Assembly: GCF_011317445.1 (NCBI RefSeq)
Contig: NZ_JAAAPL010000001.1
Span: 1,755,001 to 1,819,000 of the forward strand
DNA: 64,000 nt
Direction of reading: 5' to 3'
Source: Chelativorans multitrophicus
GTDB taxonomy: Bacteria > Pseudomonadota > Alphaproteobacteria > Rhizobiales > Rhizobiaceae
Shown: piece after piece, positions 24,642-60,944 of the stretch
How the letters are laid out: each line of letters opens with the position of its first letter
How positions within the stretch are numbered: position 1 is the first letter of the stretch
The notes under the pieces: model-generated
What the model saw: only the letters and a program-made list of their open reading frames with translations
What the model was told of the DNA's origin: nothing
Databases searched by the model: none
Made by a program: the position numbers and the translations under genes

Positions 24642-26086
24642 GAACGACTCCCGCCGAGAGGGGTAAGTCCTGTTACTTCGTCGATTGGCGTCTCAGGCGT
24701 GCTCTCCCTTTGCGAAGCGCGCAGAGGCACCACTGCTATCGTTCCCGCCAGCACATAGAACAATAGGCCGAGGTCATAGACCGTGCCGGCGGCGAACGCC
24801 TCAGCAAGCGCTGCAACAAGTCCTGCCTTGCAAGCCCGGACAATCTTGGCGTCCAGGTCTATGCCGGTCTCGCTGCCTGGCCGAGGCAAAAGAATGGAGC
24901 CGATGAAAATTGCAAAAAGCGCGGTGCCTAGCAGGCCGACATTGGAAAGAAGCACGAGCAGATAACTTGACGCCCGCGCGCTTCCAAGCCCGGCGCCCCA
25001 CCCTCCGGTATCGATGAAAACCTGGTATGCGACCGCGTTCCACATGAACCTCTCCCGGCCGGAGTGGCTCTCGAGCTTGGAAAAGAGGATCTCGTCCAGG
25101 TAACTTGCCACGCTATCCAGCAGGTCTGGCATGGCGAGCAGGACAAAAAGACTTACGAGAGGGATTGCCAGAACGGTCGAGGCCAGGAAGGCGGGTCTTC
25201 CAATCGGGCTTTTGCGTATCGATTCTCCGACCGATCTGAAGGCCAGATATACGGCCACAACCGCCAACGCCACCATTCCGGTGGCCGAGGTGGAAAGGAG
25301 GAGGGCGGCGAGCAGAAGCACCGCGACGCTGCCCGTTAAAAGCGAGCGCACCCGGTCGAGCCAGAGACTGCCGATAAAAGCAAAGAGCACCGAGGTGTAG
25401 CCTGCAAAGGCCGAAGCTTCGGAGAAGGTGCCGGAAATGCGCTTGAAGCCAGCTTTCTCGGAGCCCGTCAGCAGTGCGTAGTTGGCTGTCCGCACAAAAT
25501 CGAAGATGTGAGCCGCGCCCGCGTAGTAAGTGACCACATCGAGAACCGCAAACCCCAGATTTGCAGCGGACAGCGCGAGCATGGCATAGACGAGACGCGC
25601 GGGCGAACCTGCCGAACGCAGATAGGCGAAGGTGAACGCAAAGCAGGCAAGTCCTCCCAATGCATAGAATGCCTGCGTGATGTTGTTCGTCGACGGTTCC
25701 AGGGCAATAAGCGAAATAGAACTGCGGCCGCCGGCAAGCCGCTGAACCGTCATGGTCTCGGTTACATCCTCCATGAGACGCGGCAGGAAGAACGCGCTCG
25801 CGACCGCGTAGGCTGTCAGAAGCAGGAGCCAGAACCCGGCCCGAGGCGGCGCCAGGGACTCAAGGATAGGACCTTCGCCAAAGGCGAGGAACATGCGCAG
25901 GCCGTAGAAGACAAGAAAGAGGCTTGGCACGAGAACAGATGCCCCGCCCAGCCCCGGCAAGCTGAAAGCCGCGCCGGCGCCAAACAGGGTGGACAATACC
26001 ATGATCGAGAATGCGCGATGAACGGGGGCAAGAAAGGTCATCATGCCCAGAGCGATCGTCAAAAGGCCGATCAATTCGATCTTCAT
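24638..26086 (-). CDS. O-antigen polymerase/ligase-like membrane protein (Wzy or ExoQ type)
   Basis: The ~482-residue protein has about 11-12 hydrophobic helices spread over its length. A large periplasmic-type loop at ~residues 310-360 (after DLLDSVASYLDEILFSKLESHSGRERFMWN) contains the GRERFMWNAV motif typical of Wzy_C/O-antigen ligase family members. It probably polymerises lipid-linked repeat units in the periplasm. The ATG at 26086 is preceded by GGGGGTGG; an ATG at 26107 would add seven residues. It overlaps the pyruvyl transferase gene and is divergent from the GH16 gene. Confidence 0.85.
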   Translation of the reverse strand: MKIELIGLLTIALGMMTFLAPVHRAFSIMVLSTLFGAGAAFSLPGLGGASVLVPSLFLVFYGLRMFLAFGEGPILESLAPPRAGFWLLLLTAYAVASAFFLPRLMEDVTETMTVQRLAGGRSSISLIALEPSTNNITQAFYALGGLACFAFTFAYLRSAGSPARLVYAMLALSAANLGFAVLDVVTYYAGAAHIFDFVRTANYALLTGSEKAGFKRISGTFSEASAFAGYTSVLFAFIGSLWLDRVRSLLTGSVAVLLLAALLLSTSATGMVALAVVAVYLAFRSVGESIRKSPIGRPAFLASTVLAIPLVSLFVLLAMPDLLDSVASYLDEILFSKLESHSGRERFMWNAVAYQVFIDTGGWGAGLGSARASSYLLVLLSNVGLLGTALFAIFIGSILLPRPGSETGIDLDAKIVRACKAGLVAALAEAFAAGTVYDLGLLFYVLAGTIAVVPLRASQRESTPETPIDEVTGLTPLGGSRS

Positions 26087-26253
26087 GCCAGCCACCCCCG
26101 CGACCATTTTCGCAGTGCGAGTGAGGTTAGCATGCGCCCGGCGCGCAGTCGTTCCACCGCCCGCTACCTCTTATGATGGACCGGCGAGCGGCTTTCGCGT
26201 GACTACTGGCCTTCTGCTGTCCGGCTATAATGATGGCTGGAGGTTCCGCGCCG

Positions 26254-27087
26254 ATGTTTCATGGACCGTATCCTTGCAGCCGGAAACAAGCGCTGCCGCG
26301 AATGGCCACGCTGATTGCGTCGGTTCTCACGCTGGCGATCTCCAGCGCCGCGTCCGCCATAGCTGCGGAAGAAGATGAGCTCGACCTCGGCCAGATGAGC
26401 CTTTCATTTGAGGAGGAGTTCGATACGCTCAGCGTCTCCGCATGGGGACCCGGCACGCGCTGGATCGCGCATACACCCTGGTCTGGCGACTTCGGAGGCG
26501 CTCGCTTCGCCAATCCGGAAGAGGCATTTCCCTTTACCATTGAGGACGGGGTTCTTCGCATCGAGGCACGTAAGGATGCCGAGGGCGAGTGGCAGTCCGG
26601 CCTGCTTGCGTCGGTCGATCCGAAAGGAAATGGGTTTGCCCAGCAATACGGCTATTTCGAAATGAGAGCTCGCCTCCCGGAAGGCCCGGGGCTTTGGCCC
26701 GCCTTCTGGCTGATTGGCAAGGACCGCTCAGAATTCACCGCAGAAATCGATGTGATAGAGTTTTACGGCGACAAGCCGGAAGGCTATTCATCCGTCGTGC
26801 ATGTCTGGTATCGCGATGGGAACCATTATTCGCGTTTCAGGCGAAACGAAGTCTTTCCAGCCGCCGATCCCAAAGACTTCCATACCTATGGCGTTCACGT
26901 GGGCCCGAATTGGATCCGCTTCTATTTCGACCAGAAGTTCATGTGGAAGACTGAGACGCAGGCGGAACACAGGCAGCCGCTTTATCTCCTCCTCAACCTC
27001 GCAATGGTCGATGGACCGTCGAAGGATCAGGCGCCCAATCCCTCCTACATGTATGTGGATTATGTCCGAGCCTATCGCTTGGACTGA
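26254..27087 (+). CDS. Secreted GH16 family glycanase (ExoK-like)
   Basis: The predicted product has a signal peptide (MATLIASVLTLAISSAASAIAA, preceded by a ~16-residue basic extension) and a beta-jelly-roll catalytic domain. The signature EIDVIEF contains the nucleophile Glu164, Asp166 and acid/base Glu169 (numbered from the ATG at 26254). QYGYFEMRARLPEGPGLWPAFWLIG just upstream is also classic GH16. Such enzymes cut beta-1,3/1,4-glucans or EPS; ExoK/ExsH cleave succinoglycan in Sinorhizobium. I chose the ATG at 26254 because GGAGG lies at 26239-26243. It probably trims the EPS made by this locus. Confidence 0.9.
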   Translation: MFHGPYPCSRKQALPRMATLIASVLTLAISSAASAIAAEEDELDLGQMSLSFEEEFDTLSVSAWGPGTRWIAHTPWSGDFGGARFANPEEAFPFTIEDGVLRIEARKDAEGEWQSGLLASVDPKGNGFAQQYGYFEMRARLPEGPGLWPAFWLIGKDRSEFTAEIDVIEFYGDKPEGYSSVVHVWYRDGNHYSRFRRNEVFPAADPKDFHTYGVHVGPNWIRFYFDQKFMWKTETQAEHRQPLYLLLNLAMVDGPSKDQAPNPSYMYVDYVRAYRLD

Positions 27088-27351: not shown

Positions 27352-29301
27352 ATGATTATGAGAGAACGACAACTCGAGCCTATGCCGCGACGCGGGAGTG
27401 AAGCACCCGCGTCACCCGCTTTGGCACAGGCTCGACCCTCCGGCGGGTATGACCGGGACAGCAATCTGCATGACCAGGTTGCCCAGCATGCAATCGCGAG
27501 ACCGGATGCAATTGCCGTCGAGTTCGGGGAAGACCGGCTCACCTATGGAGAACTGAACCAGCTCTCTTCTGCCTTGGCCTTGGAACTCGCGATGCTCGGC
27601 GTGAAGAAGGGAGATACTGTCGGCCTGCTCCTGCCGCGATCGCTCGAAACGGTCCTAGCTATACTTGCGATCCTCAAGGCGGGTGCCGCATACGCGCCTT
27701 TCGATCCGGCCTATCCCGTTGAGCACCTACGCTATATGGCGGATGACTGCCGCCCCAAAACAATCCTCACTGACGGCAAGGAAACGCCAGCGATCCGGGA
27801 GATTGAACGATGGCATGCCGTTTCCAGTTTGGGTGCTCTCCTTACCCGCTCAGCGCAACGTCATTCTTCCGATTTGCCCACGGTCGAAGGCGGTGATGCT
27901 GCCTATGTGATGTACACCTCTGGCTCCACCGGGCGGCCTAAGGGTGTGATCATTCCCCACAGGGGCGTAGCGAGGCTTGTGCGCGAGCAGAATTATATCC
28001 GCTTCGAGCCGAGCGATGTGGTGCTGCACACGGCCACCATCTCTTTCGACGCAGCGACATTCGAGATCTGGGGCGCTCTGCTCAACGGCTGCAAGCTGGT
28101 GGGGATCGGCGACCAAACCTTATCGCTCCAGCGCATCGCTGAAACGATCGAGCGGAAGCGAGTGACGGTCATGCTGTTGACGACCGGCCTCTTCCACCTG
28201 CTCGTTGACTACAGGCGCGAAGGTTTTCCCTCGCTGAGACACGTCCTTTTCGGCGGAGAGGTGGCATCGGCCGATCATGCACGGCGCTTTCTACGCGCCA
28301 ATCCCGGCTGCCTTCTTACCAATGCCTACGGCCCGACCGAAGTGACTGTGATGGCGTCCGCCTACACGATCCCCCCGGACTTTGCGGGAGACGAAATCCC
28401 CATAGGCCACAGCATCGCGCATAGCCATATCCATATCCTTGACGAGGAACTTAACGAACTGCCGGTAGGGACGGAAGGACAACTCGCGGTTTCCGGCGAC
28501 GGGCTGGCCATCGGTTACCTCAATCGCCCCGCGCTCACCAACGAGCGTTTCGTCACCATCGACACCGCCGGTGAAGGCTCGGTCCGCTGCTATCTTACGG
28601 GCGACCTCGCGGTGATGGACGCGAACGGACTGCTGCATTTTCGCGGCCGCCGCGACCGGCAGATCAAGATCGACGGCAAACGCATCGAGCTCGATGAAAT
28701 CGAGGCGGCGCTGCGGCGAGATCCGCGGCTGGCCGATGCAGTGGTCATCTGCCGCGAAGACCAGAGCATCAAGCGGATCGTGGCCTATCTAAAGCCGCAC
28801 CCGCCTTTTCCGGCCTCGAAGGAAGAATTCGCAGGAATGATCCTCTCGACGCTGCGGAGGGTCCTCCCCAAGCACATGATCCCCAGCAGCGCGATCGTGC
28901 TCGAAGAGTTTCCGATGAATCAGGCGGGCAAGATCGATCGCTCCAAGCTTCCGCCGCCGCAGCCGGATGCCGCGCCACAGTCGATCACGCCCGCGGCTGG
29001 CACGGAAGCGGTTCTGCGCAGCATCTGGGAGCAGGTGCTCGGACGAGCGGCAATCGGGCTCGACCAGAATTTCTTCGACCTGGGCGGCACCTCTCTCCAA
29101 CTCATGCGTGTTCATGCGGCGGTTGAAGAGGCAATCGGCAGAAAGGTGGATGTGGTGGAGGTGTTCCAGCATCCCACCGTCCGCGCGCTCGCAGCCCGCC
29201 TCGACAATGCGAGAGCCGACGCTGAAATTACAGCCGCCGCCCGTTCGCGCGCGGACCTCCGCAGAAGCAGCATCGCGCATTTCCGCCGGAGCGCTCCATG
29301 A
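27352..29301 (+). CDS. NRPS loading module: adenylation - thiolation
   Basis: The 649-residue protein is an A-T didomain with no condensation domain, so it is a starter module. The A domain (~35-520) has core A3 YTSGSTGRPKGV (~residue 188), A5 NAYGPTE and A10 NQAGKIDR with its Lys. The T domain has DLGGTSLQL with Ser581 as the phosphopantetheine site. Reading the ten-residue specificity code by eye against GrsA gives approximately D-A-F-M-L-G-A-V-M-K, closest to leucine codes; this is a prediction only. A spacing of ~265 bp separates it from the GH16 gene. AGGG precedes the ATG. The stop overlaps the next gene by ATGA. Confidence 0.95.
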   Translation: MIMRERQLEPMPRRGSEAPASPALAQARPSGGYDRDSNLHDQVAQHAIARPDAIAVEFGEDRLTYGELNQLSSALALELAMLGVKKGDTVGLLLPRSLETVLAILAILKAGAAYAPFDPAYPVEHLRYMADDCRPKTILTDGKETPAIREIERWHAVSSLGALLTRSAQRHSSDLPTVEGGDAAYVMYTSGSTGRPKGVIIPHRGVARLVREQNYIRFEPSDVVLHTATISFDAATFEIWGALLNGCKLVGIGDQTLSLQRIAETIERKRVTVMLLTTGLFHLLVDYRREGFPSLRHVLFGGEVASADHARRFLRANPGCLLTNAYGPTEVTVMASAYTIPPDFAGDEIPIGHSIAHSHIHILDEELNELPVGTEGQLAVSGDGLAIGYLNRPALTNERFVTIDTAGEGSVRCYLTGDLAVMDANGLLHFRGRRDRQIKIDGKRIELDEIEAALRRDPRLADAVVICREDQSIKRIVAYLKPHPPFPASKEEFAGMILSTLRRVLPKHMIPSSAIVLEEFPMNQAGKIDRSKLPPPQPDAAPQSITPAAGTEAVLRSIWEQVLGRAAIGLDQNFFDLGGTSLQLMRVHAAVEEAIGRKVDVVEVFQHPTVRALAARLDNARADAEITAAARSRADLRRSSIAHFRRSAP

Positions 29302-32300
29302 CCCAATCCGTTCTACCGGACATCGCCGCCATCGACGAGAATGTGGGACGGATCGCTATCGTAGGCATGTCCGGCCGCTTTCCCGGTGCGCCCTCGGTAG
29401 ACGCACTTTGGGATCTCGTGAGCAAGGGCAAGCACGCCTTCGCCCACTTCCGGCCGGAGGAGCTGGAAGACGCGTTCGAAGACGCTGTCCGCGCCTCAAA
29501 GGATTATGTGCCGGCCAGGCCATACCTTGATGACGTCGACCTGTTCGATGCCGAATTCTTCGGCATGTATCCGCGCGAGACAGCACTCATCGACCCCCAG
29601 TTCCGGGTATTCCTGGAAATATGCTGGGAGGCGATCGAAGGCGCGGGCTATGACCCCTATTCGCTGCCGGGCCAAGTGGGCGTCTTCGCCGGCTCCGCGC
29701 TCAGCACCTACTTGATCAACAATGTACTGTCGGACCGCGAAAAGGCGGAGGCTTTTGCCTCCAACTACCAGGTCGGCATGTTCTCCGAGCTGATTGGCGC
29801 GATCAACGACACGCTTGCCACCCGCGTAGCCTATAAGCTCGATTTGCGCGGGCCTGCCTTCACCATTCAATCTGCCTGCTCAACCTCTCTGCTTGCGGTC
29901 GCACAGGCTTGCCAGAACCTGCTTACCTATGCCTGCGATATGGCGCTGGCCGGGGGCGTTTCGATCACCTTCCCGCAAAAGCGCGGCTATATTCACCAGG
30001 AAGGTGGAATGGTCTCGCAGGACGGCTTTTGCCGTCCCTTCGATGCCGACGCGGGAGGCACCGTCTTCGGCAGCGGCGCCGGTGTCGTGCTGTTGAAACG
30101 CATGGAAGACGCGCTAAAGGACGGCGATCACATCCATGCAGTGATCCTCGGCTACGGCGTCAACAACGACGGGTCGAGCAAGGTTGGCTACACGGCCCCA
30201 AGCGTCGACGGCCAGGCGGAAGCGATTTCCGCCGCGCACGCCAGCGCCGGCATTGATCCTGGCACCATTGGCTATATCGAGTGCCACGGCACGGCCACGC
30301 CGCTCGGCGACCCTATCGAGTTCGCCGGCCTGAGAAAGGCGTTCGGCGATGCATCGATGGGGCAAAGCGTCTGCGCGCTGGGTTCGGTCAAAGGCAATTT
30401 GGGGCATCTCGACGCGGCTGCCGGCGTCACGGGGCTTATTAAAGCGGTGCATGCGCTAAAGCATGCAAAGATTCCGCCGATGGCGAATTTCCAAAATCCT
30501 AATCCTCGCATCAAGCTTGAAGATAGCCCTTTCTACATTCCGCGCGAATTGCATGACTGGCCGGCCCAGGATCATCCGCGCCGGGCAGGCATAAGCTCTT
30601 TCGGTGTAGGCGGCACCAATGCTCACCTTGTGGCTGAAGAAGCTCCACCTTCACCCGACCTTCAAGAAGAAGAAAAAGAAGAAAACTCCAGCTTCATCAT
30701 ACCTTTATCGGCCCGCAATGAATCATCTCTTCGGGCTGCGCGGCGGAATCTGGCGGCAATGCTGAAAAGCGGTCCGCATATGCCGATCGCCGCAGTTGCC
30801 CACACGCTCCAGCACGGACGGCACCATTTCTCGCATCGCGCGGCGGTGATCGCAGGGAATATCGAGGAGGCAATTGCCGGGCTTGAAGGTGAGCGTCCGA
30901 TTACCGGCAAGGCCACCGAGACATCACCACCGGTCGTCTTCATGTTTCCAGGTCAGGGGGCACAATATGTCGGCATGGGCCTCGGCCTTTATGAACGAGA
31001 GCCCGAATACGCCCGCTGGATCGACCACGGCGCGCGGTTGCTGGAGGAACAGGCGGGAATAGACATCCGCAAGTTTCTCTGCCGGAACAACGTGCAGGGC
31101 GAGGAACTTTCGGCCGCGCTCAAGGATACCCGTATCACGCAGCCTGCCCTTTACCTCGTCGAATATGCGGCGGCGCGCCTCTGGATGAGCCGGGGCCTGA
31201 AGCCTGACGCCATGATAGGCCACAGCGTCGGGGAATTCGTCGCCGCCACGCTTGCCAATGTGATGACCTTCGATGACGCGCTGCTTCTGGTCGCGGCCAG
31301 GGGCCAGCTCATGCAGGAGCAACCGAAGGGAGCAATGATCTCCGTCCGGGCCGATGCTGAGACGGTGAGGGATTTCCTCGATGATGGCGTCGAGATCGCC
31401 GCCATCAACGCCCCGAAACTCTGCGTCGTCTCCGGTACTTTCGAGGCTGCGGACGTCATCTGCAAGAAGCTGGAAGCTGCCGATATCGCCTTCAGCCGCC
31501 TCCATACCTCCCACGCCTTCCACTCGGCCATGATGAATGAGGCGGCGGCCGCCTTGCGGGAGCAAACGGATAAAATTGCCTACGGCCGGGCAACAATCCC
31601 CTACATCTCCTGCTTGACCGGGGAGTGGCAGACGGACGAGCTTGGCACCTCGCCCGAATACTGGGCGCGGCACTGCCGCGATGCCGTCCGTTTTGCGGAA
31701 GGGCTTGTCACCGTCTGCCGCGACCGGAAACCGGCGCTCCTGGAGGTCGGCCCCGGCCGCACGCTCTCGACCTTCGCCGCGCAGACGATCGGCCGGAGCG
31801 ATCTTGCTGCCGTAATCCAATCCCTGCCCGAGCATGATCGGGCTTCGCAGGCTGCATCCGCCTTCGCTGAAGCGCATGCGCGGCTGTGGGTTGCCGGCTG
31901 CACGCTGGAATGGCCAGCCCTGCCCGCTGAGGCTCGGCGGCGCGTACCCCTCCCGACCTACCCGTTCGAGCGCAGGCGGCATTGGATCGATCCTCCGCCG
32001 CCAATCCGCAGGGCAATACCAAACGTCGAAGCATCCCCCACGGGGCAGGCCGCTTCCCAAGACGGTCCGCCTTATCCAACCCCCTCTTTTGGAAACACAC
32101 CAATGAACGCTGTGACACCCGCTCCTTCGCCGAGCAGGATTGAAAAGCTTGAAAATGCACTGCTTGCACGGCTTGCGGAGATGTCGGGAGAGGAGATGAC
32201 GCCGGACGCCCTCTGCGCCACCTTCCTGGAGCTGGGCTTCGACTCGCTTTTCATCGGCCAGTTCGCGCAGAAGATTGAGAAGGAATACAAGGTAAAGCTC

Positions 32301-35300
32301 TCCTTCCGCGAACTGCTGGGAAACATTCCTTCCGTTTCCGCCCTGGCGCGGCACCTGGATAAGGAAATGCCGCCCGAGGCGGTGCAACAGCCGCTGCCTG
32401 CCCAAACGGCGCAAGGGCCTGGCCAAGCGGTTTCGTCTCCGGCGAGGCAGCAACAGGCAATTACCGCCCCGCCGCCTACCGCCGGCGCGGTTGACGCGAT
32501 CTTCCAATCGCAGATGCTGATGATGCAGCAGCTCTTTGCACAGCAGATCCAGGCGCTCCAGGCGATGGGCGGGGCACAGGCCGCTCAACCGCCAGAAGAA
32601 CTTCCCGCTCCAACCGCGCAGGCTCCTGCTGCCCTTCCCCCATCTTCTGTACCTGCGAAGATGGCGGACCGGGAAATCGGCGGCGAGCGTCTCCGCCTCC
32701 ACAAGCCGGGCGCGCGCGCCAGCGATGGAGAGCTTTCGCCTGAAAAGCGGAAATTTATCGCCGATCTCGCCGAGAGCTATGCGGCGCGGAATGCCCGCTC
32801 CAAGGCCTTCACGGCAGCACATCGCAGCCGACTGGCTGACCCCCGCACAGCCGCGGGCTTCCGGCCCGAATGGAAGGAACTTGTTTTCCCGATCGTCTCC
32901 GATCGTTCCAAGGGCTCGCGCATCTGGGACATCGATGGCAACGAGTATATCGACCTGGTCAACGGCATGGGCCAAACCGCCTTTGGCCATGCCCCCGATT
33001 TCGTCGTCGATGCGATCAGGGCTCAAACGGAGAAGGGCTTTGCCATCGGCCCGCAGACGCCGCTTGCCGGCGAGGTGGCCGACCTCATCAGCAAGATGAC
33101 CGGCCACGAGCGCGTGACTTTCTGCAACACCGGCTCGGAAGCCGTGATGGCTGCGATGCGCGTGGCCCGTGCTGTGACCGGGCGCGAGAAAATCGTCGTC
33201 TTCGGCAACGATTACCACGGCCAGTTCGATGAGGTGCTGGTAAAGGGCAGGACCCGCAACGGCTCGCCCGTGGCGCTGCCGATCGCGCCGGGCATCCCCC
33301 CGAGCTCGCTTTCCAACATGACCGTTCTTTCCTACGGCAGCTCCGAAAGCCTCGATTGGATTCGCGCCAATGCCGAGGACGTGGCGGCGGTCATTATCGA
33401 GCCGGTCCAGAGCCGGCACCCGGAGTTGCGGCCCGTCGAATTCGTCCGGGAGCTGCGGCAGATCGCGAATGAGCGCGAATTCGCCCTTGTCTTCGACGAG
33501 GTCGTTACAGGGTTCCGGGTGCATCCGGGCGGCATCCAGGCCGTCTGGGGCATCCGGGGAGACATGGCGACCTACGGCAAGGTGCTGGGCGGTGGAATGC
33601 CCATCGGCGTCCTGGCAGGAGACAGCCGCTTCATGGACGCGCTCGACGGCGGCAGATGGAATTATGGGGACGATTCCGCTCCCATGGTGGCGCCGACCTT
33701 CTTCGCCGGCACCTTCGTGCGCCACCCGCTGGTGCTCGCGGCAGCCAAGGCGGTGCTGCGGCACTTAGAGGGCGACGGGCAAGCTCTCTACACTCGTATC
33801 GCCGACCGCACGAAGCTCCTCGTCGATGAGCTCAGCGCCGATTTGGCGGCGCGCGGCATCGAGGGCTGCATCAACCATTATTCAAGCTGGTTCGTAACGG
33901 ATTTCAGCAGCCGCGACCCCCTGGGAATGCTCTTTTATCCAAAGGCGCGGATGCTGGGCCTTCATATCCAGGATGGGTATCCCTGCTTCCTCACAACCGC
34001 CCATGCGGAAGAAGATTTCCGGCGGATCGCCGAAGTGTTCAGGGAGACTTTGGACGCGCTCCAGCGCGTCGGGATTCTCGCTCCTGCCGGAGAGCGCGCC
34101 TCCCCGCAACCCGCACCGGTCGCGCGCCCTGCGGCAGAAAATGTCATCACCTCGGCCGGGCTGACGGAGTCCCAGAAAGAGATCTGGCTGGCCGCCCAGG
34201 CAGGAGACGAAGCCTCCTGCTCTTTCAACGAATCTTTCAGCCTCAACCTCCAAGGGACTCTCGACAAAGAGATTTTCGTCCAGGCGATCGAAATGGTGGT
34301 TGCCCGCCACGATGCGCTTCACATCCGTTTCTCGCGGGCGGGGGACCGTTTCGAGATGATTCCTGATTTCAGGATTCCGCTCGAAACCATTGATTTGACT
34401 CACAACAACACGCCTGAAGCGGCACTTGAAGAGATCGTAGCCGAGGAGGCCTCGACACCCTTCGACCTGGCGAACGGACCTCTCGCACGCGCCCGGCTCC
34501 TAAGCCTTGCGCAGGACCGGCACGTCTTAATCTTCACGGCGCACCATATCGTCTGCGACGGCTGGTCGGCGAATGTGATCCTGGAGGAGTTGGCGTCTGC
34601 CTACACGGCTCTTTGCGACGGGAGGACGCCCGACCTTCCACCGGCGCTCTCCTTCGCCGCCTATGCGGACGACGTCGCAGCACGGGAGGCGCAACCCGCG
34701 ACTGAGGAATTCTGGCTCAAGCAGTTCGAGACGATCCCCGAGCTGCCGGAGATGCCAACCGATCGGCCGCGGCCGGAGCAGCGGACTTTCGCCGGCGGCA
34801 CCTGCACCGCCTTTGTAGAGAAGGATGTCTACAAACGGCTCAAAATGGCCGGAGCAAAGAGCGGCGCCACCTTGTTCTCCACGCTTCTGGGAGCGCTGCA
34901 GGTAATGATATCGCGGCTGTCGGGCAGCACCGATATCATCATCGCCATTCCATCGGCCGGTCAGAGCCTCGTTCCCGACCAGACGCTGGTCGGTCACTGC
35001 GTTAATCTCCTGCCGATCCGGCAGCAGATCGATGCCGAGGCCAGATTCGAAGAGCACCTTCGCCAAACCCAGCAGCTCGTGCTTCAGGCCTTCGAGCATC
35101 AGGACTACACCTATGGCACCTTGGTGCGAAAGCTCGGCCTGAAGCGCGACCCCAGCCGGCTGCCGCTCACCGAGATCCAGTTCAATCTCGAACGGGTCGC
35201 CCGCAATGCCGTCTTCAAGGGGCTGTCGGCCAAGGTCACTCCGAATCCCAAGGCTTTCTCCAACTTCGACATGTTCCTCAACATGGTGGAGGGGAACGAC

Positions 35301-37337
35301 GGGATACGCATCGACATCGACTACAACGGCGACGTGTTCGATCGCGCGACCATAGAGCGCTGGCTGGGCCATTTCACGATACTTGTGTCGGTGCTGGCCG
35401 ATGGCATGGGCGCGAAGATCGCCGATCTTCCCATCCTCTCCGAAAACGAGATGCGCTGGCTGATCGAAGAGCTCAATGAGACCGACGCGGACTACGAGCG
35501 AGACCGGTTCATGTTCGAGCTTTTCGCGGCAAAGGCAGCGGAACAGCCGAAGGCGATTGCTGCCGTGCATGAGGGCAAGTCGATCACCTACGGCGCGCTG
35601 GAAGCCAGGAGCAACCAGCTTGCTCGCCATCTCCAGACAAAGCTCTCGATGCCTGGCCTTCGCGTCGCGCTCGCGCTCGACCGCTCCATAGATATGCTCG
35701 TAGCGTTGCTGGCGATCATGAAGGCGGGGCATACCTATGTGCCGCTGGACCCCGGCCATCCCCCTGCCCGCCTGGCCCAGACTATGAAGACCGCCCGCGT
35801 TTCAGGCGTGATCTGTGCAAGCGGGGAGATTGGAAAGCTTGGCGAGCCAGACACGAGCGTCATCCGGATGGACACGGAAAGCGAGGAGATCGCCCGGCAG
35901 GATTCGCGTCCGCTCGACCTGCAGCTCCTCGATACCGAAGCACCCGCCTATGTGATCTTCACCTCCGGCTCAACGGGCACGCCTAAGGGCGTGGAGATTT
36001 CCCACCGGGCACTGGTGAATTTCCTCAGCTCTATGGCAATGGAGCCTGGCTTCTCCTCTGAAGATACATTGCTGGCCGTAACAACCATCTCCTTCGACAT
36101 AGCGGGATTGGAGCTTTACCTGCCGCTCATCATGGGAGGGCGGGTGGTCATCGCCAACCGCACCGAGGTGCAGGACGGCTTTGCCCTGGTAAAGCTGCTC
36201 AGGGCCAGCGGCGCAAACGTCCTGCAGGCAACACCGACACTCTGGCAGATGCTGGTGGAGGCTGGTCTTTCCAATCAACCCAAACTCAAGATGCTCTGCG
36301 GTGGCGAGCCGCTGCCGAAGGATCTTGCCCGGAAACTGCTCACGATCGGCGGAGAGCTGTGGAACATGTACGGGCCGACGGAGACGACCATCTGGTCATC
36401 CGTTGCCCGCATAGTGAATGCCGACGACCCGATCCATATCGGCCGCCCAATCGCCAACACGCAGCTCTACATCCTGGATGGGCATGACCGCATCGCGCCT
36501 GTCGGCGTGACCGGCGAGCTTTACATCGGCGGAGAAGGCCTTGCGAACGGCTATTTCGACCGGCTGGATCTCACCCAAGCCGCCTTCCGCTCGGTCAGGA
36601 TTGGGGACGGCCTGCCCCGCCGTCTCTACAAGACCGGCGATGTCGGCCGCAGGCTACCCGATGGAACGCTTCAGCTCCATGGCCGCCGCGACAACCAGAT
36701 AAAGCTCCGCGGTTTCCGGATCGAGCTTGGCGAGATCGAAGCCGTGATCGGCAAGAAGGCTGGTATCCGGCAATGCGCGGTGGTGGCCGCTCGCAACAAG
36801 AACGGCGATAGGCAGCTCGTCTGCCATTTTGTGCCGGACGGTCAGGAGCTTTCACCTGACGAGCTATCAACCCATGCCAAGGAGCATCTGCCCGCCCACA
36901 TGGTTCCGAGCTTCTGGGTCGCGACAGCAGATCTCCCCAAGACGGCGAACGGCAAATTGGACCGGAAGACGCTGGAAGAACGCGGCGTTCCGCAGCGCCA
37001 CAGCGCCGCCCCTGTCCGCATCAAACCACGCACGCCCATGGAACAGAAGCTGTCCGTCATCTGGCAGGAAGTTCTGCAGGTCGGCGAGATAGGCATCCAT
37101 GACAATCTCTACGCGCTGGGAGCGGATTCGCTCAGCATCTTCCGCATCGCCGCCCGCATGATGGATGACGGCCTGCCGCTGGAAGCCAAGCACCTCATGC
37201 GCCATCCAACTGTCGCGGGCCTGGCCGGTTTTGCCGAGGAGCAGGGCAATGCCGCGGCCAACGGCGCGGTGGCTCCGATCCCCTCGCTACGCGATTTCCG
37301 ACACGGCGCGCGCCGCCGGCTTGAGAGGCTCACATGA
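29298..37337 (+). CDS. Hybrid PKS-NRPS: KS-AT-ACP-aminotransferase-C-A-T
   Basis: This 2679-residue megasynthase has, in order: KS ~16-445 (Cys194 in QSACSTS, His330, His370); AT ~545-895 (GHSVG Ser643; HAFH at 739-742, the malonyl-CoA type); ACP around Ser983 (GFDSL); an Ala/Pro/Gln-rich linker ~1035-1145; a class III PLP aminotransferase ~1150-1590 with Lys1428; condensation ~1615-2050 (HHIVCDG, His1750); adenylation ~2070-2560 (Lys2553 in NGKLDR); and T around Ser2611. The KS-AT-ACP-AMT-C-A-T order matches the mycosubtilin/iturin-type module that makes beta-amino acids. By eye the A-domain code is close to D-I-L-Q-L-G-M-I-W-K, near the glycine code. ATGA overlaps couple it to both neighbours. 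The module reading is strong; the product is inferred. Confidence 0.96.
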   Translation: MTQSVLPDIAAIDENVGRIAIVGMSGRFPGAPSVDALWDLVSKGKHAFAHFRPEELEDAFEDAVRASKDYVPARPYLDDVDLFDAEFFGMYPRETALIDPQFRVFLEICWEAIEGAGYDPYSLPGQVGVFAGSALSTYLINNVLSDREKAEAFASNYQVGMFSELIGAINDTLATRVAYKLDLRGPAFTIQSACSTSLLAVAQACQNLLTYACDMALAGGVSITFPQKRGYIHQEGGMVSQDGFCRPFDADAGGTVFGSGAGVVLLKRMEDALKDGDHIHAVILGYGVNNDGSSKVGYTAPSVDGQAEAISAAHASAGIDPGTIGYIECHGTATPLGDPIEFAGLRKAFGDASMGQSVCALGSVKGNLGHLDAAAGVTGLIKAVHALKHAKIPPMANFQNPNPRIKLEDSPFYIPRELHDWPAQDHPRRAGISSFGVGGTNAHLVAEEAPPSPDLQEEEKEENSSFIIPLSARNESSLRAARRNLAAMLKSGPHMPIAAVAHTLQHGRHHFSHRAAVIAGNIEEAIAGLEGERPITGKATETSPPVVFMFPGQGAQYVGMGLGLYEREPEYARWIDHGARLLEEQAGIDIRKFLCRNNVQGEELSAALKDTRITQPALYLVEYAAARLWMSRGLKPDAMIGHSVGEFVAATLANVMTFDDALLLVAARGQLMQEQPKGAMISVRADAETVRDFLDDGVEIAAINAPKLCVVSGTFEAADVICKKLEAADIAFSRLHTSHAFHSAMMNEAAAALREQTDKIAYGRATIPYISCLTGEWQTDELGTSPEYWARHCRDAVRFAEGLVTVCRDRKPALLEVGPGRTLSTFAAQTIGRSDLAAVIQSLPEHDRASQAASAFAEAHARLWVAGCTLEWPALPAEARRRVPLPTYPFERRRHWIDPPPPIRRAIPNVEASPTGQAASQDGPPYPTPSFGNTPMNAVTPAPSPSRIEKLENALLARLAEMSGEEMTPDALCATFLELGFDSLFIGQFAQKIEKEYKVKLSFRELLGNIPSVSALARHLDKEMPPEAVQQPLPAQTAQGPGQAVSSPARQQQAITAPPPTAGAVDAIFQSQMLMMQQLFAQQIQALQAMGGAQAAQPPEELPAPTAQAPAALPPSSVPAKMADREIGGERLRLHKPGARASDGELSPEKRKFIADLAESYAARNARSKAFTAAHRSRLADPRTAAGFRPEWKELVFPIVSDRSKGSRIWDIDGNEYIDLVNGMGQTAFGHAPDFVVDAIRAQTEKGFAIGPQTPLAGEVADLISKMTGHERVTFCNTGSEAVMAAMRVARAVTGREKIVVFGNDYHGQFDEVLVKGRTRNGSPVALPIAPGIPPSSLSNMTVLSYGSSESLDWIRANAEDVAAVIIEPVQSRHPELRPVEFVRELRQIANEREFALVFDEVVTGFRVHPGGIQAVWGIRGDMATYGKVLGGGMPIGVLAGDSRFMDALDGGRWNYGDDSAPMVAPTFFAGTFVRHPLVLAAAKAVLRHLEGDGQALYTRIADRTKLLVDELSADLAARGIEGCINHYSSWFVTDFSSRDPLGMLFYPKARMLGLHIQDGYPCFLTTAHAEEDFRRIAEVFRETLDALQRVGILAPAGERASPQPAPVARPAAENVITSAGLTESQKEIWLAAQAGDEASCSFNESFSLNLQGTLDKEIFVQAIEMVVARHDALHIRFSRAGDRFEMIPDFRIPLETIDLTHNNTPEAALEEIVAEEASTPFDLANGPLARARLLSLAQDRHVLIFTAHHIVCDGWSANVILEELASAYTALCDGRTPDLPPALSFAAYADDVAAREAQPATEEFWLKQFETIPELPEMPTDRPRPEQRTFAGGTCTAFVEKDVYKRLKMAGAKSGATLFSTLLGALQVMISRLSGSTDIIIAIPSAGQSLVPDQTLVGHCVNLLPIRQQIDAEARFEEHLRQTQQLVLQAFEHQDYTYGTLVRKLGLKRDPSRLPLTEIQFNLERVARNAVFKGLSAKVTPNPKAFSNFDMFLNMVEGNDGIRIDIDYNGDVFDRATIERWLGHFTILVSVLADGMGAKIADLPILSENEMRWLIEELNETDADYERDRFMFELFAAKAAEQPKAIAAVHEGKSITYGALEARSNQLARHLQTKLSMPGLRVALALDRSIDMLVALLAIMKAGHTYVPLDPGHPPARLAQTMKTARVSGVICASGEIGKLGEPDTSVIRMDTESEEIARQDSRPLDLQLLDTEAPAYVIFTSGSTGTPKGVEISHRALVNFLSSMAMEPGFSSEDTLLAVTTISFDIAGLELYLPLIMGGRVVIANRTEVQDGFALVKLLRASGANVLQATPTLWQMLVEAGLSNQPKLKMLCGGEPLPKDLARKLLTIGGELWNMYGPTETTIWSSVARIVNADDPIHIGRPIANTQLYILDGHDRIAPVGVTGELYIGGEGLANGYFDRLDLTQAAFRSVRIGDGLPRRLYKTGDVGRRLPDGTLQLHGRRDNQIKLRGFRIELGEIEAVIGKKAGIRQCAVVAARNKNGDRQLVCHFVPDGQELSPDELSTHAKEHLPAHMVPSFWVATADLPKTANGKLDRKTLEERGVPQRHSAAPVRIKPRTPMEQKLSVIWQEVLQVGEIGIHDNLYALGADSLSIFRIAARMMDDGLPLEAKHLMRHPTVAGLAGFAEEQGNAAANGAVAPIPSLRDFRHGARRRLERLT

Positions 37338-40141
37338 ACAGAACAGATCCGGCCGGCCTGCGCCCGCAGAGCGAACACAAGGTCATCGCCGAGTTTCCCT
37401 GCACGCAGACCCAGCTTCGCTGCTGGTTCCTTGATCAGCTCAAGCCAGGCAATCCCGCCTTGAATGTTGCCGTGCGCTGGGAGATCCGCGGCAATTTCAA
37501 GACTTCGTCCATTGAAGAGGCTTTCCGGCAGGTCATTCATCGCCACGAAATACTGAGAACACGCTTCATCGATATGGGTGGCCGGCCCGTTCAGCAGGTC
37601 GTTGAGAGCGTCGACTTCCGCATGTCGGTCATCGACCTGAGGAATGTCCCCGAGTCCCAGCGCGACGAGCGTGTCCAATCCATCAGCCGGGAAACGGCGG
37701 CGGTGCCCTTCGATCTGCGGGAACCCGGGCTCTTCCGCGTCACCTTCCTCATCGTCGAAAACAATCGCGGGCTGATCTTGATCACCGCGCACCAGACTTG
37801 CTTCGATGGCTGGTCCATCCGCGTGCTCGGCCGCGAAGTGGGCGAAATCGCTTCCGCACTGGATGCCGGCAGGACGCCGAATTTGCCCGAGCTTCCATTG
37901 CAATACGGAGATTTTGCGCTCTGGCAGGCCGAATACCGGCAGAGCTACGGGTTCGAAGCGGAGAAGGATTACTGGAGCAGGCAGTTGGCCGGCGCTCCCT
38001 ATTTCGAGATCCGCCCAGATCGCCCGCGCGGCGCCATCAAGACAAATCGCGGCGATATTGTTTCCGCCGCCATGCCGCCGGAGTTCAGCGAGCGCATAGA
38101 CCAGGCCGCCCGTGGCCTGCAAGTCTCGCTGTTCAGCTATGGCGCTGCGGTCATCAGCGCCGCACTTCAGCGCTTTTCCGGCGAGCGGCAAATTCTCTTC
38201 GGAACGCAGATCGCCGGGCGTGAGGATGTCGATCTCGAGAACCTCATCGGCGTATTCATCAACAATCTGGTGCTGCGCTTCGACGTCACCAGCGAGCGGC
38301 CCTACGCCGACCACGTGCGCAGCGTAAGCGACACGGTCGAAGCGGCGCTAAATCATCAAAGAATGCCATTCAACAATCTCGTCGAGCTCATAAATCCGGT
38401 GCGCGATCCCGCGCGCAATCCGCTGGTCTCGATCAATTTCAACCAGCAGAAGGCATTTCTCGAAGATGCGCGCTACGGCGGATTCGAACTCATCAGCTCG
38501 CCCTCCCAATCGCCCGGCGTGATCTACGACCTAAACTTCATCATGATCGGCAGGCCCGGTGGCTGGCGCATGTCCGTCGAATACAACATGGATCTGTTCG
38601 ATACTGCCACCGCGAAGGAATTGCTGCGTCTCTGGCAGGAGACCTACGAGACGGCGCTCGCAAACCCGGAAGGCACGTTGGCGTCCTTCGGCACGCCTGC
38701 CAGCGCAAGGCGCGGTCCGGTTGCGGCCGCCTCGGGCCGGCTCGGCCTTCTGGAGGCGGCGCTGGCCGGTCACTCGGACGTGGCCGAAGCTGTCGCGATA
38801 GATACCGCCGGCAACGGCGCATATGCCTTCGTATCGCCGTCTCCCGCCCTGGCGCGACCCCTGGAAGCGCTTCCGGAAGAGCTCATGACCTATCTCTCCA
38901 CCCGGCTGTCGCCAAAGGACATGCCGGACGGTATCAGCGTGCTGCTCGCATTCCCTCGCACCCCCGCAGGGGATCTCGATCGGTCGGCGCTGAAGGCTCC
39001 CTCGCCGGGTCCACGCCCGGCGAGGGAGCACCCCGTTTCCAAACCAATCCCAAACGTTGAAGCTGCACCCGCTCGCGAGCAGGAACTTGCGAAGATCTGG
39101 GCGGACGTTCTGGGTGTTGAACAGGTCAAGGGCTCCGACGATTTCTTTGCCCTTGGCGGACATTCGCTTCTGGCCCTGCGCATGTTCTCCGCCATGCGCG
39201 AGACGTTCGGAACCAAGCCGGACCTGGCCCTGCTCTTCAGAGCGCCCACACTGTCCGCCTTTTGCCGAGCATCCTTCGGCGACGAAGCGCCGATATCGGA
39301 GCCGGAGCCTTCGCCGGCACAAGCGGGTGGCGCCCGTTCCCGTTACTGGGAAAAATCCGTCTATCGTGAGGGAAGTGGCGACTGCACGGTTTACACGCTG
39401 AATCATCCGCTTCTCTACTACCACATGGCCAACTCATTGGCCGAGGGCCCGGCTGTAGTGAACCTCCATATGTTCGGCGCCGAGCTCAATGAGGAAATCC
39501 GCAATCAGCCGCTGGAAGAGATCGTGGCCGATGCCATACGCGCGATGGATTTTCGCGCGGATTCCGGTCCGGTCGCGCTGGTGGGACTATGCGTGAACGG
39601 TATTCTCGCCATCGAAATGGCGAGGCAGCTTCGCACCCTCGGCAACCAGGTTCTATGCGTGGCCATCATAGACAGCTGGGCGCCTGGTTATTTCCGCTCG
39701 CTGCCACGCATGCGCCAGGCGCGCTGGAAGATGGAGACACGCATCAAGCGCGCATTCTATTTCACCGGAAAGCTGCTGCGCGGGCGCATCAAGCTCGTCG
39801 ATTACCTCAAGGAATTCAATGCCTCCCAGAAGCTTCTGCAACGTTTCAGCAAAGCTGGAGAATTGACGCAGGAAGAGCTGCTTACCGAATCCGTCACGCA
39901 GCTTCTCGTGGATGCATCGAGAGGATACGAGCTTCGGCCCGTCATGGAGGAAGAGGTTCTCCTTTTCCGCAGCCGAGCCCACCATAAGAGGGCACGAAAG
40001 CTCCTCTTCGGCTGGCGCGGTCTCATCCGCGAGGATTCCGCGGTCCATGACATTGATGGCTGGCACGAGGATTCGCTGACCAATGCGGGCATAGACGGTC
40101 TGGCGGCGGTTCTGTCGAAACGCCTTGCAGCGGGAGACTGA
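37334..40141 (+). CDS. NRPS terminal protein: C(degenerate)-A remnant-T-TE(Cys)
   Basis: The 935-residue protein has a condensation domain at ~20-450 in which HHxxxDG is read AHQTCFDG: His153 is present, but the catalytic second His is replaced by Gln154. From ~470 to ~555 only the small C-terminal adenylation subdomain survives (FPRTPAGDLDRSALK), lacking the large substrate-binding core and the A10 Lys. A normal T domain follows (GGHSL, Ser611). The C-terminal ~675-935 is a type I thioesterase with VGLCVNG, so the nucleophile is Cys753 rather than Ser; Asp780 and His911 would complete the triad. It is coupled to its upstream neighbour by ATGA. Confidence 0.93.
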   Translation: MNRTDPAGLRPQSEHKVIAEFPCTQTQLRCWFLDQLKPGNPALNVAVRWEIRGNFKTSSIEEAFRQVIHRHEILRTRFIDMGGRPVQQVVESVDFRMSVIDLRNVPESQRDERVQSISRETAAVPFDLREPGLFRVTFLIVENNRGLILITAHQTCFDGWSIRVLGREVGEIASALDAGRTPNLPELPLQYGDFALWQAEYRQSYGFEAEKDYWSRQLAGAPYFEIRPDRPRGAIKTNRGDIVSAAMPPEFSERIDQAARGLQVSLFSYGAAVISAALQRFSGERQILFGTQIAGREDVDLENLIGVFINNLVLRFDVTSERPYADHVRSVSDTVEAALNHQRMPFNNLVELINPVRDPARNPLVSINFNQQKAFLEDARYGGFELISSPSQSPGVIYDLNFIMIGRPGGWRMSVEYNMDLFDTATAKELLRLWQETYETALANPEGTLASFGTPASARRGPVAAASGRLGLLEAALAGHSDVAEAVAIDTAGNGAYAFVSPSPALARPLEALPEELMTYLSTRLSPKDMPDGISVLLAFPRTPAGDLDRSALKAPSPGPRPAREHPVSKPIPNVEAAPAREQELAKIWADVLGVEQVKGSDDFFALGGHSLLALRMFSAMRETFGTKPDLALLFRAPTLSAFCRASFGDEAPISEPEPSPAQAGGARSRYWEKSVYREGSGDCTVYTLNHPLLYYHMANSLAEGPAVVNLHMFGAELNEEIRNQPLEEIVADAIRAMDFRADSGPVALVGLCVNGILAIEMARQLRTLGNQVLCVAIIDSWAPGYFRSLPRMRQARWKMETRIKRAFYFTGKLLRGRIKLVDYLKEFNASQKLLQRFSKAGELTQEELLTESVTQLLVDASRGYELRPVMEEEVLLFRSRAHHKRARKLLFGWRGLIREDSAVHDIDGWHEDSLTNAGIDGLAAVLSKRLAAGD

Positions 40142-40142
40142 T

Positions 40143-41789
40143 GTGAACGTGTCCAACCGGCTCTATGTCCAGCCCTTTGTGGAATGGACAAACCCGAACG
40201 GGAAATCGCCATTGCGTATTGCCGTGCTCGTTGGTCGGGAAAAGGGCCTCGCTCCATGGGAGTTGCAGCTTCTCGATCGGCTGCTGGCAGATCCTCGCTT
40301 CGAGCTTGTGGCTTTGCTGGTCAATCCTCGCCCTTTCAGCACAAAAGCGACGGCTCTTTTCAAGTTCGTCGCCCATATAGATCGACGTCTGTTCGCCCGC
40401 CTGCCGCCTTATACCCCAACCTATTTCGCGCATACTCGCGAGCGCATCGAAATCATCCGCCTCACCAGGCGGGCATCGGACCGGAAACCAGATCTGCCGC
40501 CAGGCATATTGGAGCGGCTGCGGCTTGATCTTGTCCTGCGCACGATTCCCGAAGGCCTGGCGGACGACATCGTCGCTGAGCTTCCCTTTGGGGAATGGGC
40601 ACCAAACGTCGCCGACTTGCAATCGGGTGAAGCCGAATGGTGCGGCTTTTCCGAGGTGGCCAGCAACGCGCCGACGATAAGCCTATCGATTTATGCGCGG
40701 CGCGGATCCAAGCGACCGCCGCAGGAAATCGATTCCGCTTCATTCAACCCGAAATTCAGCGCAGCGCGAAGTGCGGCTTTCCTCAAGGAAAAATCGGTCT
40801 TTCTCATCATGAGGGAATTGCGGCGGCTGGCCGACACGCGCCAGCTTGCCACAAAGCCGATACCTCCCGAACCCGCTGCATCGCCCGGAAAAGCCGAGGT
40901 GGGGCGTTACATTGCCGGATTTGCACGCGCCGCCGCCACGCGCCTGAGATGGGAATTGATGAGAAAGGCGGGCTGGCAGGCGGCGGTATGGACGCTTTAC
41001 GCCGGCGAGGGAACTGTCGAGGACTTTGAGCCGGGCACGAGCACGGAGTTGCCGCCGGCGCGAAACTCGATCAAGGCGGATCCCTTTCTCTTCAATCGTA
41101 ACGGGCGCTTCTATGTGTTCTATGAGAATTATGCGGTGGGCGACAGCAAAGCCCATATCGCGGTAGGCAGGCTGAAGCAGGGCACGATAGAGCCGCTGGG
41201 TATCGCGCTAAGAGGCGACGGCCACCTCTCCTTTCCTTTTGTTTTCCAAAGCAAAGGGGAAATCTTCCTGATGCCGGAGACTCATCAGCAAAAGCGGATC
41301 GAAATCTGGCGCTGCGTGAAATTTCCTCTCGAATGGGAGCTTCATGCCACCGCCATGGAAGGCTGCTCCGCTGCCGACAGCACGCTTTTCCGTCATCGGA
41401 ACAAGTGGTGGCTGCTCACCAATCTTTCGGACCACCACGCCTTCGAGGATCATTGCAGCGAGCTTTACGCCTTCGAAGTCGACGGGCCCTCCCTTTCACG
41501 CATCGAGCCTCATCGTCGCAATCCTGTCGTGATCGGCAGCACTGTGGCGCGCAATGCGGGCCGCGTCTTTTCCCGTCATGGCCGGCTTTTCAGGCCCTCG
41601 CAGAACAATGCCTATGGCATCTACGGCTACGGTCTCAATATCATGGAGATCGAGGAGCTTACGCGGGAGACCTATCGGGAGCGCTGCATCAGGACCATAC
41701 TGCCCGACTTCAAACCGGGCCTCATAGGCTGCCACCACTTCGATGCCAGCGGCGGGCGCTACATCCTGGATGCGCGGTTAAACAGGTGA
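40143..41789 (+). CDS. Formyltransferase-like / GINT1-like beta-propeller protein
   Basis: This ~548-residue protein begins at a GTG at 40143, right after the NRPS stop and behind GGGAGA. The first ~220 residues resemble a formyltransferase fold (IAVLVGREKGLAPWELQLLDRLL; LDLVLRTIPEGLADDIV) but I see no HPS-type catalytic motif. The second half (~275-548) has repeated blades with ADPFLFNRNGRFYVFYEN, SFPFVFQSKGEIFLMPE and STLFRHRNKWWLLTN, the five-bladed propeller of glucosamine inositolphosphorylceramide transferase-like (GINT1_N) proteins. Such modules often accompany polysaccharide genes. It is the last gene of the NRPS operon, and its 3' end overlaps the PPTase gene on the opposite strand. 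The role is unknown. Confidence 0.78.
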   Translation: MNVSNRLYVQPFVEWTNPNGKSPLRIAVLVGREKGLAPWELQLLDRLLADPRFELVALLVNPRPFSTKATALFKFVAHIDRRLFARLPPYTPTYFAHTRERIEIIRLTRRASDRKPDLPPGILERLRLDLVLRTIPEGLADDIVAELPFGEWAPNVADLQSGEAEWCGFSEVASNAPTISLSIYARRGSKRPPQEIDSASFNPKFSAARSAAFLKEKSVFLIMRELRRLADTRQLATKPIPPEPAASPGKAEVGRYIAGFARAAATRLRWELMRKAGWQAAVWTLYAGEGTVEDFEPGTSTELPPARNSIKADPFLFNRNGRFYVFYENYAVGDSKAHIAVGRLKQGTIEPLGIALRGDGHLSFPFVFQSKGEIFLMPETHQQKRIEIWRCVKFPLEWELHATAMEGCSAADSTLFRHRNKWWLLTNLSDHHAFEDHCSELYAFEVDGPSLSRIEPHRRNPVVIGSTVARNAGRVFSRHGRLFRPSQNNAYGIYGYGLNIMEIEELTRETYRERCIRTILPDFKPGLIGCHHFDASGGRYILDARLNR

Positions 41790-42571
41790 TCGTCGGCCAA
41801 CGGCGGTGCCCGGCGCAGCGGGCGCAGAGGCTCGGGCCACTCGCTTCCGTTTTGATCCTCGGTGACAGAGCGATAGCGCAACCAAATCCTGTTGCCGCCC
41901 GTCGATGCCGCCACCGCCCCGATATACCCGTAGGGCATTGCAATCTCGGCCAGCCGCCACCGAAGCGGCGCCCGAGGGTCGCCTTCCAGCCTCAGGAGCT
42001 TGGGCTCGCTGGCGTCATCTATGGATACGTCGAACGCGTCGAGCGGAAGCGAAAGGCCGGCGCCATGGGCCTTCACAAAGGCTTCCTTGCGTGTCCAGCA
42101 ACGATAGAACGCCTCTAGGTATTCGCTCGGCGGCAGGGTCCCGAGCGCCTGCTGCTCGGCGGGAGAAAAGAAATGCTGCGCTACGTCTTCCTTCAGAGGA
42201 AGCGCCTGCTCGATATCCACGCCCACCTGATACCGGTCCGACACCGCAAGCACTGCCATACCGCCGGAATGGCTGAGATTGAAGTGAAGCGGCGGTTTTG
42301 CACCCGCAAGACGCGGCTTGCCGAAAGCATTATAGGTGAAGACGAGCCGCTTGGCGGGAAGACCGAGATAACGCGCCAGGATCTCCCGAAGCCGTCCGCG
42401 CCCTACCAGAAAACGCAGTCGATCACGTTCCTGCAGAAATCGGCCGGCACGGGCGAATTCCGTATCGCTCAGCGCCTCCACATATCGCGGCAGTTCACCG
42501 GCAATGACATCGAGAGGCCATCTCCAGAGATCGATGACGTCCGGTCCGATCGTGACGGGGCTATACCGCAT
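41759..42571 (-). CDS. Sfp-type 4'-phosphopantetheinyl transferase
   Basis: The enzyme attaches the phosphopantetheine arm to ACP/T domains. It shows the Sfp-group motifs NLSHSGGMAVLAVSDRYQVGVDIEQ and FYRCWTRKEAFVKAHG (WxxKEA), with KPRL at ~residue 90. Starting at the ATG at 42571 (behind AGGTG) gives 270 residues. It lies directly after the DegT gene, overlapping its end by 11 bases. Being beside a megasynthase with four carrier domains, it most likely activates them. Its stop lies inside the convergent GINT1-like gene, a 31-bp overlap. Confidence 0.93.
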   Translation of the reverse strand: MRYSPVTIGPDVIDLWRWPLDVIAGELPRYVEALSDTEFARAGRFLQERDRLRFLVGRGRLREILARYLGLPAKRLVFTYNAFGKPRLAGAKPPLHFNLSHSGGMAVLAVSDRYQVGVDIEQALPLKEDVAQHFFSPAEQQALGTLPPSEYLEAFYRCWTRKEAFVKAHGAGLSLPLDAFDVSIDDASEPKLLRLEGDPRAPLRWRLAEIAMPYGYIGAVAASTGGNRIWLRYRSVTEDQNGSEWPEPLRPLRRAPPLADDHLFNRASRM

Positions 42572-50561: not shown

Positions 50562-50568
50562 GGCGAGC

Positions 50569-60900: not shown

Positions 60901-60944
60901 TTAATGGCCATGCGATCAGCCGATCTTGAGAGGAGATGGCACTC

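Follow-up and report, generated by a model that had tools for sequence, protein, structure and literature searches.

A short hybrid NRPS-PKS assembly line within an EPS locus, probably of Wzx/Wzy type, of Chelativorans multitrophicus and its proposed link to the polysaccharide

Domain organization of the three-gene line

The window analyzed here, a stretch of 64,000 nucleotides from Chelativorans multitrophicus, harbors three plus-strand genes (27352-40141) that overlap by 4 bases at both junctions and encode a hybrid NRPS-PKS line. The domain order read there in the initial annotation, A-T / KS-AT-ACP-AMT-C-A-T / C-(A remnant)-T-TE, is confirmed by Pfam matches and motifs. The first protein (649 aa, 27352-29301), matched by AMP-binding, AMP-binding_C and PP-binding, is an A-T starter with a branched-aliphatic (Leu-like) code; its A domain (A1) lies at about 27484-28932 and its T domain (T1), with the carrier serine kept, at about 29011-29202. 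A fatty acyl ligase loading domain is absent, and the A-T protein has an amino-acid-type code in its stead.

The second protein (2679 aa, 29298-37337) matches ketoacyl-synt, Acyl_transf_1, Aminotran_3, Condensation and AMP-binding in Pfam, together with two PP-binding stretches. It comprises a KS (29349-30491; motifs SACSTSL and HGTATPLGD), an AT (30936-31898; motifs GHSVG and HAFH, the latter of which we take to be a malonyl-type signature), an ACP with approximate limits 32160-32402 and its carrier serine in LGFDSL (residues 979-984), a class III aminotransferase domain of MycA type (AMT, 32883-33848), a C domain with an intact HHIVCDG motif (34158-35462), a second A domain (A2, 35523-36956) and a carrier with its serine kept (T2, 37047-37232). 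The third protein (935 aa, 37334-40141) is matched by Condensation, AMP-binding_C only, PP-binding and Thioesterase, corresponding to a terminal C domain (37391-38698), an A remnant reduced to the C-terminal subdomain (38750-38971), a carrier (T3, 39080-39268) and a thioesterase (TE, 39416-40102).

All four carrier serines of the line are kept, as are the A10 lysine in A1 and A2, the Cys-His-His motifs of the KS and the conserved motifs of the AMT. KR, DH, ER and methyltransferase domains are absent from the line according to Pfam and, among the matches listed, NCBIfam. A search of the 4.82-Mb own genome with the large second protein gave 20 matches, with no second multi-domain match; those outside the cluster are single-domain-sized and at most 35% identical. 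Because full-length relatives are many, chance can be excluded as the source of the line.

For a comparison with relatives, the best 80 of 577 confirmed stretches, making up 79 loci, were taken, and 73 KS..AMT lines were read, the window included. Own-genome loci (L001-L008) were excluded from neighborhood work, and open reading frames were called mechanically, with some loci (for example, L013 and L028) misread. Among the matches listed, such lines occur in Alpha-, Beta- and Gammaproteobacteria, Acidobacteria, Bacteroidota, Planctomycetota and Verrucomicrobiota. One PKS-like match, in genome G013 (L095), was discarded; it is a single aminotransferase-like stretch of 251 aligned residues.

An A domain stands directly before the KS in 58 of these 73 lines from the best 80 of 577 matches, and the 15 in which none was read include contig ends and ORF-calling faults. 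The aminoacyl start, which had been considered unusual, is thus common; as the common form in the relative loci compared, it was dropped as a point of novelty.

Substrate codes, aminotransferase and terminal module

The code of A1 reads DAFLLGAVMK by GrsA-style hand alignment and DAFLVGAVMK with MAFFT columns, shifted one place at site 299. We take it to specify a branched-aliphatic amino acid, two positions off a Leu code, so that of the earlier Leu-like assignment the branched-aliphatic part stands, and Leu itself is a reasonable candidate substrate. The A2 code, DILQLGMIWK, is presumably that of glycine by substrate tables, in agreement with the earlier Gly-like reading. The first A domain after the AMT has a DILQ* code in 56 of the 73 KS..AMT lines (window included; best 80 of 577 matches), with other codes in 15 and none read in 2. 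Starter codes differ among relatives, including DAFWIGGTFK, DFWNVGMVHK and DVQFVAHV, which we assume to be Val-like, Thr-like and Pro-like, respectively. Since malonate, AMT and usually Gly are constant across relatives while the starter code varies, the fixed core appears to be a β-amino acyl-Gly unit with a variable amino-acid starter.

The initial annotation had tied its product model to an AMT of the MycA/ItuA type, and among solved structures the AMT is indeed closest to the MycA aminotransferase. The query (32748-34067) aligns with PDB 6kfm over 440 of 440 residues (E 3.5e-120) and matches 6kfr (E 3.5e-120) and 6kfu (E 6.5e-120) equally well or nearly so; the next family among solved structures is glutamate-1-semialdehyde aminomutase (best E 2.1e-54). 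The order KS-AT-ACP-AMT-C without a ketoreductase is also that of the MycA/ItuA type. In PMC3870968, MycA is described as moving an amine from Gln onto the β-keto thioester on the ACP. As far as the glycine step, the favored prediction for the product is still a 3,4-diamino acid built on a Leu-like starter, to which Gly is added.

The third protein holds several features absent from the initial annotation. The motif of its terminal C domain is HQTCFDG, with the second His replaced by Gln; its A domain has lost the A10 Lys and reads GDLDR instead of GKxDR; and its TE motif, GLCVNG, has a Cys nucleophile. In the survey of the best 80 of 577 matches, the C domains that directly follow an AMT in one ORF retain the second His without exception (62 of 62). 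It is present in none of the 15 third proteins of the Rhizobiaceae-Phyllobacteriaceae clade (window included; L013 unreadable), which have HQSCFDG or HQTCFDG. In Rhodobacterales the terminal C domain has HQ in four loci (L031, L037, L043 and L064), HY in L075 and HH in L048; HQ is also found in Xanthobacteraceae (L017 and L073), Nevskia (L016 and L019) and L018. Elsewhere, HAxxxDG occurs in three Reyranella-type loci, HSxxxDG in Paraburkholderia and HH in others, among them a Proteobacteria MAG (L028).

The terminal C domain is nonetheless of full length, and an alignment of 18 proteins shows no variation at Thr151, His153, Asp158, Gly159, Trp160 or Ser161. Over the same number of aligned proteins, the TE motif glycines 751 and 756 and Asp780 are invariant, and His911 nearly so. 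Among the matches listed, the TE nucleophile is Cys in 35 of 45 motifs read and Ser in 10, one of the latter being a stand-alone gene (L074, minus strand). The A remnant looks like a reduction, because relatives in Nevskia, L018 and Marinobacterium have a complete A domain in its place. Judged by these features, the third module appears to be inactive in chain extension, and its terminal C domain may not condense at all.

Other arrangements were seen at the end of the line. In Bradyrhizobium and Acidobacteria relatives, domain search found tandem condensation domains, two in number, and no adenylation domain in the third protein (L030 19965-23849, L055 18081-22008, L074 19905-23822 and L078 15753-19766; Pfam agrees for L030). 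A PAF-acetylhydrolase-like protein (family f16, 12 loci; for example, L016 23439-24935) is often encoded where the third gene ends, or close by, in loci that lack the propeller protein described below.

The surrounding polysaccharide locus and its distribution

The line is set within an EPS locus, probably of the Wzx/Wzy type. Upstream lie a LuxR-type regulator at the edge of the block (21486-22247, minus strand) and a Crp-type regulator (22499-23356, minus), both of which accompany the block in many relatives, followed by a polysaccharide pyruvyl transferase (23421-24641, minus), a Wzy/ligase-like membrane protein (24638-26107, minus), whose match to Wzy_C (O-antigen ligase) scores 20.6 bits, below the Pfam cut-off of 31.7, and a GH16 glycanase (26230-27087, plus; Pfam). 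Downstream, the start of a propeller protein (40125-41789, plus) overlaps the NRPS stop. Next come a phosphopantetheinyl transferase of the ACPS superfamily (41759-42715, minus; best NCBIfam match HetI, below its cut-off), a DegT/DnrJ sugar aminotransferase (42561-43859, minus), a GMC oxidoreductase (43903-45672, plus; Pfam) and a TIGR04325 methyltransferase (45669-46673, minus; above its cut-off). The remaining genes encode a Wzx-type flippase (46474-48006, minus), an initiating sugar transferase (Bac_transf; 48416-49093, minus), a Wzc-like co-polymerase/kinase (51455-53827, minus), a Wza-like export protein (53864-55192, minus) and three glycosyltransferases: GT4 (49329-50732, minus), GT2 (50569-51489, minus) and GT4 (55217-56635, plus). 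As the own genome has five Bac_transf genes, one such neighbor would be expected by chance at about 3% (a simple distance estimate) and is weak evidence by itself; the weight lies on conserved co-occurrence.

The propeller protein has two domains, an N-terminal alpha/beta part and a C-terminal beta-propeller (GINT1_N; GH43/GH130-like fold). For its N-terminal part, Foldseek placed a formyltransferase (4iqf) at rank 27 with an rmsd of 15.6, and a second structural look returned rows almost only for residues 298-554. The propeller proteins of L057 (23419-26052) and L065 (20939-23557) extend into a glycosyltransferase-like C-terminal part, and beside that of L057, a Lysobacteraceae locus, lies a sugar transferase of XrtA/PEP-CTERM type that scores above its cut-off.

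Beyond the last glycosyltransferase, a 395-aa protein (56933-58120) without a Pfam match adjoins the block. Two further products without Pfam matches, one very rich in Gly, Asp and Asn and of low complexity by reading (59096-60829) and one with recurring CDND segments by reading (60936-62918), are possibly surface or secreted proteins.

Within the genus, the third protein is found in 6 of 16 genomes, own included. The same six hold the third protein, the propeller protein, Wzy (at least 68% identity), GMC (at least 70%) and TIGR04325, and at those levels none of the five occurs in the other ten; a Wzy relative in G009 and G013 reaches 32% only, and weak GMC relatives occur in all 16. The gene order between LuxR and the final glycosyltransferase of the block is preserved on a plasmid of Ensifer canadensis T173, with 20 of 20 block genes, and likewise on a plasmid of S. 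fredii NXT3 (L101), with 19 of 20 genes and no Crp match. In Rhizobium sp. SL42, all 20 are present on a RefSeq-annotated plasmid, where the polysaccharide half has been relocated to a position upstream of the regulators. The line is also found on plasmids of Loktanella and Rhodobacter, among EPS genes ordered in other ways. The stretches of these searched, which for Rhodobacter begin at the start of a circular record and cover one side of the line only, gave no match to DegT, GMC, the pyruvyl transferase or the propeller protein. Records with at least 80% coverage of the propeller protein number 15 in the plasmid collection, and every one of them also has the third protein; the third protein itself is found in 19 records at E 1e-90.

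Across 297 genomes sampled over the order, the third protein was matched in 8, in 6 of them by the C domain only; matches over most of its length are confined to 2, own and G242, and the line is rare in the order. In G242 it has the same kind of EPS neighbors in a different gene order. The propeller protein was likewise matched in 2 of the 297 genomes (own and G225), and the EPS locus around its relative (35%) in G225 gave no NRPS match above 80 bits in 36 kb. Given this locus, and the Loktanella and Rhodobacter stretches in which the propeller protein was not found, the candidacy of that protein as an obligatory transferase of the NRPS product was lowered. For DegT and GMC, making an acceptor amino sugar is a possibility only; since the stretches searched in Loktanella and Rhodobacter yielded neither these two nor the propeller protein, none of the three can be the general acceptor maker.

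Over the best 80 of 577 matches, window-seeded profiles detect at least two polysaccharide families in 35 of 80 loci and fewer than two in 45; the scan is lenient, as two classes of glycosyltransferase suffice, and it misses families that are unrelated. An AMT tree was built from 72 rows out of the 80 loci with the window, namely those in which a single ORF combines a KS with an AMT match longer than 330 residues. At least two EPS families accompany 23 of the 25 rows in its Rhizobiaceae/Phyllobacteriaceae/Rhodobacterales clade and 11 of the 47 other rows. The EPS label changes 11 times on the tree, the shuffled mean being 24.1, and none of 500 shuffles is as tight, a result that near-copies help. 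The Reyranella-type loci L021, L038, L042, L044 and L045 show no EPS family with the window-seeded profiles. A relative on a Variovorax RA8 plasmid has no annotated polysaccharide gene in 44 kb and adjoins RND/TolC efflux genes. TIGR04325 methyltransferases recur beside the line, also in places that lack annotated polysaccharide genes nearby, three of them in Variovorax RA8 (L103 27971-41154), and may act on the assembly-line product.

Proposed role and comparison with known systems

Overall, the initial interpretation is partly supported, and what is new here is the third module unable to load its own residue (His-less C, Cys-TE), the finding that the aminoacyl start is common, and the conserved EPS-locus setting. 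We propose that this short hybrid NRPS-PKS makes a diamino-acyl-Gly unit for the polysaccharide of the EPS locus in which it lies, a reading to which we give a probability of about 0.48. The domain order, active-site motifs, reduced A domain, missing His, TE-motif Cys and conserved EPS block can be read directly in the DNA; the substrates, product, acceptor and attachment we infer as follows. A1 would load a branched aliphatic amino acid, probably Leu, which the KS would extend by one malonate; the AMT would convert the 3-ketone to an amine, so that a 3,4-diamino acid results (a 3,4-diamino-6-methylheptanoyl chain in the case of Leu), and C-A-T would then attach Gly. The third protein, unable to load a residue of its own, would, in the manner of the glidonin C-A*-T-TE module, pass the completed chain on to an acceptor outside the line or else release it; the last catalyst would probably be the Cys-TE, and the acceptor probably a sugar of the co-encoded polysaccharide. 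The location inside an EPS gene block, here and in many relatives, points to a possible attachment of the small product to that sugar polymer, and the conservation of the EPS locus with the line makes use in a polysaccharide-linked unit likelier than use as a free metabolite. More tentatively, the line may define a class of EPS with a 3,4-diamino-acyl-Gly side group, in which the His-less C-A*-T-TE(Cys) module moves the chain to a repeat-unit sugar before Wzx export.

A less likely competing explanation is that a small free diamino-acyl-glycine, or a cyclic form made by the TE, acts as a diffusible metabolite or signal and that the genes merely travel with the polysaccharide block. The LuxR and Crp regulators at the block edge would suit such a product, as would the Variovorax relative with its efflux genes, the near-complete conservation of the TE columns, and the 45 loci with fewer than two EPS families. 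Against this, the line and the EPS genes co-occur in the same six genomes of the genus, and their association survives rearrangement of gene order.

Two alternatives concern the third module itself. Its terminal C domain might be non-catalytic and dock T2 only, leaving the Cys-TE alone to hydrolyze or transfer the chain. We consider this improbable: the loss of the second His in several forms (HQxxxDG in the clade of the window, HAxxxDG and HSxxxDG elsewhere) and the prevalence of Cys in TE motifs fit it, as does the requirement of A* and T13 of glidonin for folding and stability described in PMC10587159, but the full length of the domain and its six invariant residues suggest a kept function. 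Still less probable is condensation of a further residue, loaded in trans on T3, to give Leu-diamino-Gly-X. The kept T3 serine would allow it, and complete C-A-T-TE modules stand there in relatives from Nevskia, Marinobacterium and a gammaproteobacterial MAG; however, in the own-genome search with the second protein, adenylation-type matches outside the cluster are at most 28% identical to A2, the A10 Lys is lost, and the second His is gone from all 15 third proteins read in the clade.

If the polysaccharide-linked proposal is correct, the assembly line would serve to acylate a sugar and not to produce a free metabolite, and NRPS-PKS enzymes would have a role within polysaccharide synthesis. 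The surface polymer would gain positive charge, in carriers that include Rhizobium, Ensifer and S. fredii nodule isolates. The line would also supply a 3,4-diamino acid building block, and its third protein would be a natural case of a C domain with the fold kept and the second His and adenylation core lost, beside a Cys thioesterase. A search of open-licence PubMed Central with narrow terms, which is not proof of absence, found no paper tying AMT-type NRPS-PKS to polysaccharide loci.

Among known systems, mycosubtilin MycA has the same KS-AT-ACP-AMT-C order without a KR as the line described here, and so does iturin ItuA. The AMT is alignable with that of MycA over all 440 query residues. However, MycA starts from a fatty acyl chain via an acyl ligase, whereas the present line receives an amino acid from an A-T protein and adds only Gly after the AMT module. 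AB3403 of Acinetobacter baumannii is a complete C-A-T-TE protein without an AMT module. Its TE motif in the printed alignment, GWCFGG, has a Cys nucleophile, as found here (PDB 4zxh). The PDB entry 8z0q, 'Special condensation domain in NRPS', aligns to query residues 21-451 (E 4.2e-50) and is, in the printed alignment, also without the motif histidines.

The third protein shares its layout of C, adenylation C-terminal subdomain only, T and TE with glidonin C13-A*-T13-TE, for which PMC10587159 describes a C domain that condenses free putrescine onto the chain and an A*-T that is structural. The same paper reports that C13 needs its second His, activity being lowered in the H9721A mutant. Glidonin has a working second His and GXSXG TE motifs, in place of which the present protein has Gln (HQTCFDG) and Cys (GLCVNG), and the absence of the second His, unlike in C13, counts against our own proposal; the likeness is one of working principle, not of membership. 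With Wzx/Wzy-dependent EPS loci, finally, the present locus has in common the sugar transferase, flippase, Wzc, Wza and glycosyltransferases, with a candidate for the Wzy polymerase in the Wzy/ligase-like protein of sub-threshold score, and unlike the usual loci of this kind it contains a complete NRPS-PKS and a phosphopantetheinyl transferase.
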